From: Burkholderiales bacterium
Lineage (GTDB): Bacteria > Pseudomonadota > Gammaproteobacteria > Burkholderiales > Burkholderiaceae_E
DNA: 64,000 nucleotides
Reading direction: 5' to 3'
Assembly (NCBI GenBank): GCA_003577305.1
Contig: QEVL01000019.1
Location: 1 to 64,000 of the forward strand
Shown: piece by piece, positions 41,797-45,407 of the stretch
How positions within the stretch are numbered: the first letter of the stretch is position 1
Layout: every line of letters begins with the position of its first letter
Made by a program: the position numbers and the translations under genes
The notes under the pieces: generated by a model
Databases searched by the model: none
What the model was told of the DNA's origin: nothing
The model's input: the letters and a program-made list of their open reading frames with translations, nothing else

Positions 41797-42399
41797 ATGA
41801 GCAACCCCGCCCGCCCGATCCGCATCGGACTCGTCTCGATCAGCGACCGGGCCTCGCAAGGCGTCTACGCCGACCAGGGCGTGCCAGGGTTGCAGGAGTG
41901 GCTCGCCGGCGCCCTGCTCACGCCCTGGGAACCGGTGCTGCGCCTGATCCCCGACGAGCGCGCGCAGATCGAGCGCACGCTCGTCGAACTGGTCGACCGC
42001 GAAGGCTGCAGCCTGGTGCTCACCACCGGCGGCACCGGCCCCGCCCGGCGCGACGTCACCCCCGATGCCACGCTGGCGATCGGCGATCGCGAGATGCCCG
42101 GTTTCGGCGAGCAGATGCGCCAGATCAGCCTGAACTTCGTACCCACCGCGATCCTGTCGCGCCAGGTTGCCGTGGTGCGCGGCCGCGCGCTGATCGTCAA
42201 CCTGCCCGGCCAGCCCAAGTCGATCCGCGAGACGCTCGAAGGCCTGAAAGACGCCGACGGCCGCCAGAAAGTGCACGGCATCTTCGCGGCGATCCCCTAT
42301 TGCCTCGACCTGATCGGCGCGCCGTACGTCGAGACGAACGAAGCCGTCTGCAAGGCGTTCCGCCCGAAGTCGGCCCAGCGACCGCCTGCCTCCTCCTGA
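41797..42399 (+). CDS. mog: Molybdopterin adenylyltransferase
   Basis: A 200-residue Mog/MoaB-type enzyme that adenylylates molybdopterin before metal insertion. IGLVSISDRASQGVYADQGV, the nucleotide loop LTTGGTGPARRDVTPDAT and VNLPGQPKSIRETLEG are characteristic of Mog. No other moa/moe gene is in the window. It is convergent with relA across an unusual 770-bp palindromic region. Confidence 0.92.
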   Translation: MSNPARPIRIGLVSISDRASQGVYADQGVPGLQEWLAGALLTPWEPVLRLIPDERAQIERTLVELVDREGCSLVLTTGGTGPARRDVTPDATLAIGDREMPGFGEQMRQISLNFVPTAILSRQVAVVRGRALIVNLPGQPKSIRETLEGLKDADGRQKVHGIFAAIPYCLDLIGAPYVETNEAVCKAFRPKSAQRPPASS

Positions 42400-42420
42400 C
42401 GCCGCACGCGCAGCGGCGGC

Positions 42421-42734
42421 CTCGCAGCGGCGGCCTCACAGCGGCGCCTTCGGAGCGGGGGGGCGCGGGGGCTTGGGCGCATGGCGAGGGGTTAGCCCGG
42501 GGCATCGCGTGCGATGGCTGCGCCCCGGCTTCGCCGGGGTTCCGGCGCCTACCTCGCAAATCGGCACCCGCGTCGTACGCGCTTCGCGCGGACGAGCGGG
42601 TCCCGCCGATTTGCTTTCGGTAGCGCGCCGCTTGCCAACGCACGCGATGCCCCGGGCTAACCCCTCGCCATGCGCCCAAGCCCCCGCGCCCCCCCTCCGC
42701 TCCGAAGGCGCCGCTGTGAGGCCGCCGCTGCGAG
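42421..42734. repeat. Palindrome A: 98/101-bp mirror arms around a 115-bp core
   Basis: The left arm 42421-42518 is the reverse complement of 42634-42734 except for one substitution and one 3-nt indel. The loop 42519-42633 is itself structured: CCCCGGC/GCCGGGG near 42523, then GCAAATCGGC (42556-42565) against GCCGATTTGC (42605-42614), with further pairing inside. The core is ~88% identical, in opposite orientation, to the core of palindrome B. Tandem units like CAGCGGCGGCCTC occur at the outer ends of both arms. Confidence 0.85.
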
Positions 42735-42769
42735 ACTGTCGCTGTGAGGCCGTCGCTGTAAAACCGTCG

Positions 42770-43196
42770 GGCGTCATCCAGGCGCGCCGGCGCTGAGAGC
42801 GGCCCCAGGGCGCCACGCGGGGCAAGCGCAACGGGCGCGTGCCGGCGGTTGCCCGCAATTGGCGGCGGGCAACGGGCGCGTGCCGGCGGTTGCCCGCAAT
42901 TGGCGGCGGGGGCCGGGCGCGAGGGGGTGCGCGTTTGCGGGCAATTGGCGAGCGGCGTGCTGCCGAAAGCAAATCGGCGGGACCCGCTCGTCCGCGCGCA
43001 GCGCGTACGACGCGGGTGCCGATCTGCGAGGCAGACGCCGGAAGCCCCGCGAAGCGGGGCCGAAGCCTCTTGCCCGCAAACGCGCACCCCCTCGCGCCCG
43101 GCCCCCGCCGCCAATTGCGGGCAACCGCCGGCACGCGCCCGTTGCGCTTGCCCCGCGTGGCGCCCTGGCTCAGCGCCGGCGCGCCTGGATGACGCC
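42770..43196. repeat. Palindrome B: mirror arms that include the end of relA, around an inverted copy of the same core
   Basis: The right arm 43070-43196 reappears inverted at 42770-42944. The left copy differs by exactly a 41-bp tandem duplication and a 7-nt insertion. The outermost 27 bases of the right arm are the last 8 codons and stop of relA, so 42770-42796 spells GVIQARRR-stop on the plus strand. The loop 42945-43069 is the core shared with palindrome A. No protein gene is supported anywhere in 42400-43169. Confidence 0.85.
42829..42910. repeat. Perfect 41-bp tandem duplication
   Basis: 42829-42869 and 42870-42910 are identical (starting CAACGGGCGCGTGCCGGCGG). The mirror arm of palindrome B has a single inverted copy at 43104-43144, so the duplication arose after the arms were formed. 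Confidence 0.9.
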
Positions 43197-45407
43197 GCTC
43201 ACATCCCGGACTGCGGCGAGCGTGCGGGCCAGCTGTCCGGCGTCGGGCACTTCGACGGTGAACCGCATGCTCGCCACCTGCGCGCGCGACAGCGTCTGCA
43301 CCGCGATCACGTTCAGCCGGTCGCGCGCGAACACCTCCGTGATGTCGCGCAGCAGGCCCGGACGGTCGCTGGCGCGCACCTCGACCTCGGCCGGGAAGCG
43401 CCGCGTGCGCCCGTCGGAACCGCCGGACAGCGCATCTTTACCCCAGGCGGTCTCGATCACCCGCTCGGGCGCACGATCGGCCATGCGCGCGAAGGTCGTG
43501 CAGTTCTCGCGGTGCACCGACACGCCGTGCCCCCTGGTGACGAAGCCCACGATCGCATCCGGCGGCACCGGTCTGCAACAGCGCGCCAGCTGGGTCATCA
43601 GCGAATCGATGCCGACCACCAGCACGCCATCGCCGCGGCCGCTCGCCTCGCGCGCGCGCCGGCGCGGCGCGACGACCGGAAGCTGCTCGGCCGCCGGGGC
43701 CGGCGCGCCCGTGGCGGCGGCGGCCGGCCCGCGCACCGCTTCCTCGAGCTGACGCACGCCGATCTCGTCGCGTGCCACCGCGAGGAACAGCGGCCCCGCC
43801 GCTTCGAACCCCAGCCGTCGCGCCAGCTCCTCGAACGCGAGCGCGGTGCGCCCCTCGCGCTGCAACACCCGCTCGACCCGCTCGCGGCCCGCGGCGGTGT
43901 CGCGTTCGAGCTCGAGCGCGTTGAACCACTGGCGCACCTTGTTGCGCGTGCGCGGGCTGCGCACGTAGCCGAGCTGCGGATTGAGCCAGTCGCGCGACGG
44001 CCCCTCGTGCCCCGTTTCCTTCGCTGCGACGATCTCCACCGTCTGGCCGCTTTGCAACGCGGTGTTCAGCGGCACCATGTGCCCGTCGACCCGTGCGCCG
44101 CGGCAGCGATGTCCGAGGCTGGTGTGCACGTGGTAGGCGAAGTCGATCGGCGTGGCGCCCGCCGGCAGCTCGATCACTCGCGCCTGCGGCGTGAGCACGT
44201 AGATGCGCTCCTCGAGCGCGGGTTGCGCCGCCGGCCCGGCCGCCTGCGCGCTGCCCAACGCCTGTCCGACTTCGCGCTGCCAGGCGAGCAGCTGGCGCAT
44301 CCAGGCGATCTGCTCCTCGTGCCCCGCCCCGGCGGCACGCGCACCGCGCGCGCTCGCCCCCGACCCGCCCTCCTTGTAGCGCCAGTGCGAGGCGACGCCG
44401 TACTCGGCAAAGCGGTGCATCTCGCGGGTGCGGATCTGCACCTCCAGCGGCCGATCGTCGTCGGCCAGCACCACGGTGTGCAGCGATCGATAGCCGTTGG
44501 GCTTGGGCCGCGCGATGTAGTCGTCGAATTCGTGCGGCACCTGCGTCCAGATGGCGTGGACGATGCCCAGAGCGGTGTAGCACTGCGCGACCGTGTCGAC
44601 GATCACCCGCAGTCCGCGCAGGTCGCTGATCTCGTCGAGCGCACGCTGTTTGCTGCGCATCTTGTTGTAGATGCTGTACAGGTGCTTGGGCCGGCCGCTC
44701 ACTTCGGCGCGCACCCCCGCCGCGGCGAGCTCGGTGCGCAGCCGCCGCATCGCCGACTCGACGAAAGCCTCGCGCGCGGCGCGGCGCTCCTCGAGCCGGC
44801 GCGCGAGCTCGCGATAGGTGTCCGGGTCGAGGAACCGGAATGCGAGATCCTCGAGTTCCCACTTCAATTGCCACAGGCCGAGACGGTTGGCCAGCGGCGC
44901 CAGGATCTCGAGCGTCTCGCGCGCGATCGCCGGGTCGGGCGGGTGGCGTTGCGCCGCGTGATGGCGCAGCGTGTGCAGCCGCGAGGCCAGCCGCAGCAGC
45001 ACCACGCGGATGTCGGCCGCCATCGCGAGCAACATCCGGCGCAGCGTCTCGGCCTGTCCGTCGGCAGCCGCGCCCGCAATCGAATGCAGCTCGCGCAGCC
45101 GCTGGATCTGCCGCATGCTCTCGACCAGTCGCGCGACTTCGTCGCCGAAGTGCGCAGCAACGTCGCGCAGCAGCAGCCGATCGGCCGGAGAGATCAGTGC
45201 CGCAGCCGTGAGCACTGCAGTATCGACGCCGAGTTCGCGCAGGATCCCGATCGTCGCCCGGGCGTGGTCGACGTAACGCTCGCCGCTGCGGCCGGTCGCG
45301 TCGCCCGCGCGCTCCTGCATCCAGGCGAGCGCGCGCTGCACCACATCTTCATCTGTGGCACCCGGCTGCACCCCCGCTGCGTCGACGACGGCTGGTCGCG
45401 TACCCAT
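43170..45407 (-). CDS. relA: (p)ppGpp synthetase RelA
   Basis: A 745-residue RSH protein. The hydrolase domain is degenerate: where HD/ED should be it reads ALISPADRLLLRD, so only synthesis is expected. The synthetase domain (KMRSKQRALDEISDLRGLRV, DDYIARPKPNGYRSLHTVVL, EVQIRTREMHRFAE), TGS, a CC-type zinc motif (LARCCRPVPPDAIVG) and an ACT domain follow. It responds to uncharged tRNA on ribosomes in the family. Its last eight codons are duplicated in inverted orientation just downstream. An ATG at 45407 is preceded by a divergent mtfA promoter region. Confidence 0.95.
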   Translation of the reverse strand: MGTRPAVVDAAGVQPGATDEDVVQRALAWMQERAGDATGRSGERYVDHARATIGILRELGVDTAVLTAAALISPADRLLLRDVAAHFGDEVARLVESMRQIQRLRELHSIAGAAADGQAETLRRMLLAMAADIRVVLLRLASRLHTLRHHAAQRHPPDPAIARETLEILAPLANRLGLWQLKWELEDLAFRFLDPDTYRELARRLEERRAAREAFVESAMRRLRTELAAAGVRAEVSGRPKHLYSIYNKMRSKQRALDEISDLRGLRVIVDTVAQCYTALGIVHAIWTQVPHEFDDYIARPKPNGYRSLHTVVLADDDRPLEVQIRTREMHRFAEYGVASHWRYKEGGSGASARGARAAGAGHEEQIAWMRQLLAWQREVGQALGSAQAAGPAAQPALEERIYVLTPQARVIELPAGATPIDFAYHVHTSLGHRCRGARVDGHMVPLNTALQSGQTVEIVAAKETGHEGPSRDWLNPQLGYVRSPRTRNKVRQWFNALELERDTAAGRERVERVLQREGRTALAFEELARRLGFEAAGPLFLAVARDEIGVRQLEEAVRGPAAAATGAPAPAAEQLPVVAPRRRAREASGRGDGVLVVGIDSLMTQLARCCRPVPPDAIVGFVTRGHGVSVHRENCTTFARMADRAPERVIETAWGKDALSGGSDGRTRRFPAEVEVRASDRPGLLRDITEVFARDRLNVIAVQTLSRAQVASMRFTVEVPDAGQLARTLAAVRDVSGVIQARRR

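Follow-up and report, generated by a model that had tools for sequence, protein, structure and literature searches.

A conserved structured core flanked by mirrored, largely locus-specific arms in Zeimonas/Lautropia-like Burkholderiaceae

The window (the whole 64,000-nt stretch of DNA that was analyzed) carries convergent mog-like and relA-like genes, and the gap between them is filled by two large palindromes. As the initial annotation had described, the arms of the two palindromes are unrelated and their centers are one common core in inverted orientation, an arrangement that was confirmed both by a search for inverted repeats and by fold-back alignment (Table 1). The best explanation for these palindromes, to which we assign a probability of roughly 60%, is fold-back (template-switch) DNA copying of the neighborhood, seeded by the core.

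In palindrome A, the inner arms (42457-42518 and 42634-42695, 62 nt) are 98% complementary and the outer arms (42400-42463 and 42692-42755) are 86% complementary. Palindrome B has arms of 81 nt (42869-42949 and 43065-43145) that are 98% complementary, further arms (42805-42880 and 43093-43168) at 96%, and outermost arms of 28 nt (42770-42797 and 43169-43196) at 100%. Arm lengths determined by fold-back alignment are 101/104 nt for A and 125/173 nt for B, which is close to the values of 98/101 and 127/175 reported earlier, and the B arms are unequal mostly because 41 bp of the left arm are perfectly duplicated in tandem (42828-42868 and 42869-42909). Cores A (42516-42638) and B (42945-43067) are 90% identical over 123 nt, for which the earlier estimate was ~88%. 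The folding energy of palindrome A is -350.5 kcal/mol, compared with -201.1 +/- 5.8 for 100 shuffled sequences, and its structure is therefore not due to chance. The stop codon of relA (43170-43172) and the codons that precede it form the outer 27 bp of palindrome B, and these are mirrored at 42770-42796. No intrinsic terminator is predicted across positions 42300 to 43300, and it is plausible that the mog and relA transcripts would both end in long RNA hairpins.

Table 1. Features of the mog-relA region of the window
Feature	Position	Strand	Basis and remarks
mog-like gene	41797..42399	+	ORF and codon-score gene finder; upstream gene of element A
Palindrome A, gene-proximal (5') arm	42411..42511	+	Fold-back alignment, inverted repeats; weaker symmetry to 42400
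Core A, sense to mog	42516..42640	+	Genomic repeat, covariation, fold z = -7.05
Palindrome A, distal (3') arm, mirror of proximal arm	42641..42744	+	Inverted repeats, fold-back alignment
Palindrome B, distal arm, with mirrored relA tail (42770-42796)	42770..42942	-	Inverted repeats, fold-back alignment
Perfect 41-bp tandem duplication, distal arm of B	42828..42909	.	Direct repeat
Core B, sense to relA	42943..43067	-	Inverted match to core A, genomic repeat, model match
Palindrome B, gene-proximal arm, which includes relA coding sequence and its stop codon at 43170-43196	43072..43196	-	Inverted repeats, ORF, fold-back alignment
relA-like gene	43170..45407	-	ORF; upstream gene of element B

The region was compared across 18 genomes of the genus (Zeimonas/Lautropia-like Burkholderiaceae), which include the genome of the window itself (G000). 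Orthologues of mog were found in 14 of these 18, and mog and relA were found together in 13, of which 8 have no element between the two genes and 5 have two facing elements each. The recurrence of the pair in five genomes indicates that it is not a quirk of the assembly of the window's genome. In seven of the element-free genomes the two genes lie 16 to 95 bp apart, and in the eighth they are separated by 260 bp of different sequence.

With a covariance model derived from 60 cores, at least 95 matches were found in at least 13 of the 18 genomes, with 1 to 17 matches per carrier and at least 7 copies in G000. These counts are lower bounds, since the pattern and model searches recovered cores in G015 that had escaped a DNA search. 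Outside the genus, a search of 74 genomes of the family gave one match each in three genomes of one other genus. An exact core pattern was found in at least 47 stretches of the GTDB species collection, which are titled Burkholderiaceae, Burkholderiales, Zeimonas, Lautropia, or Limnobacter with the exception of one contig binned as Pirellulales (L111). This contig carries the core together with a flank that is 91% identical to a G005 locus, and judging from this sequence it is probably mis-binned. The exact pattern has no match among viral contigs, and we therefore rejected a phage origin of the core. A known RNA family was likewise rejected, as the only sequences of the 64-kb window that reach Rfam gathering scores are two tRNAs. 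The core is ~115 to 125 nt long and has a three-way-junction fold, in which a hairpin is followed by a long kinked stem that carries an internal loop and a CCC bulge, both conserved. In G003, G007, and G008, a second inner module takes the place of the core's inner stem while the outer frame is kept; among other loci, it is seen at mog-relA in G008 (L071) and G003 (L072). Based on this alternative module within a single outer frame, the element looks modular.

The initial annotation had held that the core is the repeated unit and that whatever flanks it becomes mirrored, and the wider set of copies bears this out. There are 74 deduplicated cores, and with the 8 that lie too near a contig end dropped from the arm statistics, 66 are measurable. 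Flanks are mirrored at 62 of these 66, in each case with a score above that of every one of 650 random positions drawn from the same loci. The search of the genome and its relatives that the annotation called for thus has the outcome that would support this view: mirrored flanks are the rule, and the arms are largely locus specific. A comparison of 52 arms, each trimmed of its inner 25 nt, gave 18 similar pairs: 10 between loci with orthologous flanks, 3 within G003, and 5 others among copies from G001, G003, and G008. In this comparison there were no similar arms between loci within G000 or within G005. Copies of the G001/G003/G008 type have short outer motifs in common, and in G003 and G008 strong mirroring often extends over the inner ~35 nt only. 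A search of G000 with the window arms returned no strong match other than their own mirror copies, and one further hit at an E value of 0.0015; as this search, made in G000 with the window arms only, found no good source, we rejected the possibility that they were copied from elsewhere in the genome.

The direction of copying can be read at two loci where the end of a gene lies within an arm. The protein encoded by relA ends in QARRR followed by the stop codon in six of eight genomes that have no element, and likewise in G000 and G005, in both of which the mirror of the relA tail is also present. Because this ending is found without an element, the copy on the gene side is ancestral and the far copy is derived. 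At the second locus, the order is gene, element, and convergent neighbor. The gene ends in RSRLADFATDAL and a stop codon, which is conserved with slight variation in 16 of 16 genomes aligned to its end, and the core is present in 3 of those 16. In G000 (locus L026, C13, 1885-2270), the neighbor ends in SRLADYATDAL and a stop codon, the same peptide as the facing gene, while elsewhere its C-terminus is SPQSNRTDAL (G005) or APSP (G013). The C-terminus of the G000 neighbor has apparently been overwritten by copying through the palindrome. G014 lacks the core at the second locus, but inspection by eye found that the end of its gene is mirrored over a short distance, in a 10-bp palindrome that spans the stop codon, so part of the palindrome can precede or outlive the core. 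This small palindrome may be either a scar of loss or a precursor.

Between G000, G005, and G013 (L026, L036, and L041), the flanks of the second locus are 90 to 97% identical and the cores are 84 to 92% identical. The arms have identities of only 0.43 to 0.54 between these three species, which is the level of shuffled sequence, yet each arm pair is 95 to 100% self-mirrored. Intergenic regions without an element are 79 to 96% identical in 7 of 8 cases, although these 8 include one 50-bp region three times, in different species pairs. The one remaining region (88 versus 40 bp) has an identity of 0.43, which speaks against the arm-replacement reading. These alignments show that close relatives can differ by the replacement of entire arms, as at the second locus. 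Wholesale replacement requires a source of new arm sequence, and none was found. In contrast, arms are stable elsewhere, with 97% identity over 91 nt between those of L092 and L125, and the turnover of arms is thus episodic.

One alternative is that the core belongs to a conventional MITE-like or REP-like mobile element, with arms that either arrived with the element or belonged to a pre-existing palindrome into whose center it inserted, and that diverged later. Orthologous sites exist both with and without the element, copy number per carrier is low, the small palindrome in G014 lies over a stop codon without a core, and copies of the G003/G008 type share outer motifs, all of which would fit such an element. 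However, MITEs have terminal repeats in common between copies, and within G000 and within G005 no shared terminal inverted repeats were found, as arms are unrelated between loci. Simple insertion also yields neither the mirrored coding tails of relA and other genes nor the turnover of arms at a fixed site. For a target-site duplication, element-free sites exist, but intergenic divergence is too high for a clean junction. Like MITEs and the hairpin elements of sponge mitochondria (passages of PMC2800124), the core family is dispersed, noncoding, and hairpin forming, but in the sponge elements the stems are conserved and the loops vary, which is roughly the reverse of what we observe. Likewise, REPs and BIMEs are extragenic hairpin repeats that form opposed dimers, some of them inside longer palindromes (passages of PMC3733652). 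REP units are 20 to 40 bp long with GTAG or CGTC tags, as described there, whereas the core is ~120 nt long and has no conserved tag: among 60 aligned cores, the GGTAG positions also read GGTGG, GGCAG, and GGAAG. The same passages note that some REP families have degenerate tags and that REPs with CGTC tags are said to lack a dedicated transposase.

The distribution of candidate enzymes also argues against a mobile element of this type. The Y1 transposase family PF01797 has matches in 3 of the 18 genus genomes, 2 of them over the cut-off; 3 of 13 core carriers have a match, and the 10 carriers in which it was not found include G000, G001, G003, G005, G008, and G013. Reverse transcriptase (PF00078), which a group II intron or retron-like element would bring, is present in 5 of the 18 genomes but in only 2 of 13 carriers (G005 and G007); it was not found in G000, G001, G003, G006, G008, or G013. 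Neither gene family tracks the core across the 18 genomes, and we therefore rejected mobility driven by a reverse transcriptase or a RAYT as the default. Taken together, we consider an ordinary mobile element unlikely.

The position of the cores relative to genes was analyzed with gene calls from a codon-score script rather than an annotation, and the 7 of 74 cores without a called upstream gene were left out. The upstream gene is on the strand of the core in 52 of 67 cases (p = 6e-6), and the rule persists when orthologues are collapsed (36 of 46, p = 1.6e-4). Since the core usually lies in sense orientation 3' of a gene, an opposed pair such as that of the window represents two convergent genes with one element each. 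Neither the sense 3' position nor the wholesale replacement of arms was part of the earlier interpretation. The 15 of 67 cores that are not sense to the upstream gene include three orthologous elements between divergent genes; these (L065, L117, and L118) lie in 5' regions and have arms that are 75 to 76% identical. The core often starts about one arm length past the stop codon of the upstream gene. Among 24 well-mirrored elements (upstream gene on the same strand, arm identity of at least 0.85, and score of >30), arm length is correlated with distance to the stop codon (Spearman 0.65), and the arms of 10 reach at least 6 nt into the gene. In 14 of the 24, the arm ends within 20 nt of the stop codon, compared with 37% when distances are permuted (p = 0.015).

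This placement is what would be expected if an RNA structure, such as a terminator, a 3' end protector, or an RNase III target, were under selection and the arms covaried point by point. The cores are mostly sense and just past stop codons, the predicted RNA folds of core and palindrome A are strong, and arms end near the stop codon as if translated RNA limited the stem. The pattern of substitutions, however, is difficult to reconcile with RNA selection. In the core stems, 196 of 1,532 cells differ on both sides, 3 differ on one side, and 19 are unpaired, and by base there are 3 G-U and 7 A-C combinations among 1,558. In the arms, G-U mismatches are no more common than A-C mismatches, both over 66 elements (82 versus 95) and in the 28 best arms (18 versus 35). 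Selection on RNA would tolerate G-U pairs and strand copying would not favor them, and their scarcity, together with the near absence of one-sided intermediates from the core stems, points to change at the DNA level. In addition, the unrelated arms of ~75 to 140 nt at a single locus would be hard to reach by point selection, and no U-tract terminator is predicted. We regard selection on RNA structure as quite unlikely to account for the palindromes.

To follow change in the arms, columns of 12 arm-pair comparisons between species were scored as same, coordinated (changed in both arms), or single. On the mog side of G000 and G005, 75 columns are the same, 22 are coordinated, and 4 are single, and the corresponding values for L027/L032 are 48, 16, and 0. 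For L092/L125, the closest arm pair, the counts are 108 (same), 1 (coordinated), and 7 (single); as most changes in this pair are single, recent changes there are still unmatched. Single changes also exceed coordinated ones in four comparisons of Zeimonas-type elements or of the L065/L117/L118 group, namely L065/L118, L117/L118, L049/L058, and L047/L057 (14:1, 16:7, 28:10, and 16:10, not necessarily in the order of these pairs), mostly in the outer arms, and the orthology of L047/L057 lacks flank support. Single changes thus prevail in 5 of the 12 comparisons. In the comparisons involving L026/L036, L030 and the relA side of the window, L038, L040, and L045, unrelated arms were forced into alignment, and the columns of these comparisons were not counted. 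Coordinated arm changes without a wobble bias, the hallmark of template switching, are therefore found, though not uniformly across loci.

The same footprint of coordinated change would be left by recombination between arms, that is, gene conversion of the kind known for Y-chromosome palindromes, with the core as a passive spacer. Core B of the G005 mog-relA locus (L030, 2463-2605) and core A of G000 (window 42505-42647) are identical over 143 nt, while cores at the same position differ between the two genomes. This indicates an exchange or swap between neighboring elements and shows that sequence moves between them, a point in favor of recombination. Nevertheless, the arms here would be short for RecA-dependent conversion, and conversion alone would neither extend symmetry into the gene of the neighbor, as seen in G000, nor replace both arms. 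We consider this explanation very unlikely. Assembly artifact from chimeric or inverted reads has a negligible chance of being correct: two G000 contigs do end inside a core (C16, end 289225, and C26, end 65564), so that fragmented assemblies may lose some elements, but the mog-relA pair recurs in other genomes, and copies lie within contigs of 3.7 and 3.3 Mb and in Zeimonas arvi, the genome of which is not titled as a MAG.

Fold-back DNA copying is the best account of the coordinated change, the lack of wobble bias, the mirrored gene tails, and the outward growth of the arms. To this extent the mechanism suggested in the initial annotation stands; that the core is its trigger is a step that we infer. 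The inherited part of the repeat would be only the structured core, usually in sense orientation just past a stop codon. When the locus becomes single stranded, for which replication or repair would be the occasion, the core would fold. A nascent or broken 3' end would then fold back, and its extension by DNA template switching would copy the neighboring strand, so that the DNA of one side would be rewritten as its reverse complement on the other. The gene side probably serves as the source in most cases, as suggested by the two loci with mirrored gene tails. Repeated rounds would keep the arms alike and extend them into coding sequence, and they may rewrite whole arms. Any role for the host, for example in the structure of mRNA 3' ends, would be secondary.

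SbcCD cleaves long hairpins in Escherichia coli. No SbcD match above the family cut-off was found in any of the 18 genus genomes, against 8 of 14 control genomes that have one, and even weak matches are absent from G000 and G005. The SbcC model is uninformative on the loss of SbcCD, as only 1 of the 14 controls passes its cut-off and all 18 genomes have weak hits. A lack of SbcCD may allow long palindromes here. Weak SbcD-like matches were found in G003 (C1:1059693), G008 (C1:11741), and G001 (C31:787), with a weak SbcC-like neighbor in G003 and G008. The elements of these three genomes have mostly short perfect arms, and those of G000, G005, G013, and G006, which have no SbcD match, have mostly long arms. 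Exceptions are G011 (L065) and the genome of L117, which have no SbcD hit and yet have arms that are only 76% identical. A link between the SbcD-like gene and arm length, with G007 left out of account, is thus suggestive, with exceptions, and we do not claim one.

Similar copying has been described in other systems. Template switching has been proposed as a single-step route by which hairpin stems arise and are repaired, also through self-priming of a folded nascent strand (passages of PMC8794818). Quasipalindrome mutation by template switching is described for yeast and E. coli; in yeast, transcription can stimulate it, and it depends on replication direction (passages of PMC3820800). As in our elements, reverse-complement copying at quasipalindromes extends or corrects arms and produces coordinated multibase changes, but the passages of both papers describe it at individual sites or stems, whereas here a conserved core is dispersed and has locus-specific arms of up to ~170 bp. 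The nearest case that we found of actively maintained long arms is that of the coding palindromes in Nematomorpha mitochondria, which have long perfect arms through inferred conversion or template switching, mirrored coding sequence, and gains and losses. These differ in being mitochondrial and inside genes, and no common core is reported in the passages of PMC6649704 that describe them. In searches of open-access literature, we found no element with only its tip conserved and no paper combining "Zeimonas" and "palindrom." Inverted repeats in Proteobacteria were reportedly surveyed by Lavi et al. in 2018. Every known family that was tested differs from this repeat in a feature that defines the family, and this kind of repeat is therefore likely to be categorically new, while its likely mechanism, template switching, is already known.

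We tentatively suggest a further possibility, which we think has somewhat less than an even chance of being correct: that the core is an active palindrome-writing element, the DNA fold of which turns the replication or repair machinery back and builds fresh stems from the local gene end. If this is true, the element would inherit only its tip, rewrite 3' ends, move gene tails onto neighbors, and renew its stems in single events, and the core would possibly be served by a dedicated factor. The core stems also give a reason for caution, since they covary almost without G-U intermediates, and covariation that is nearly perfect should not be taken as proof of RNA selection. The roughly 100 natural replicates, together with element-free relatives, provide a means of measuring fold-back copying, which is usually inferred from single mutations, and they reveal a route by which the C-terminus of one gene may be copied onto its neighbor. 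Repeats are normally recognized by their shared ends; copies of this family have only the tip in common and their ends are local, and a repeat of this kind would exist in a different way from others.
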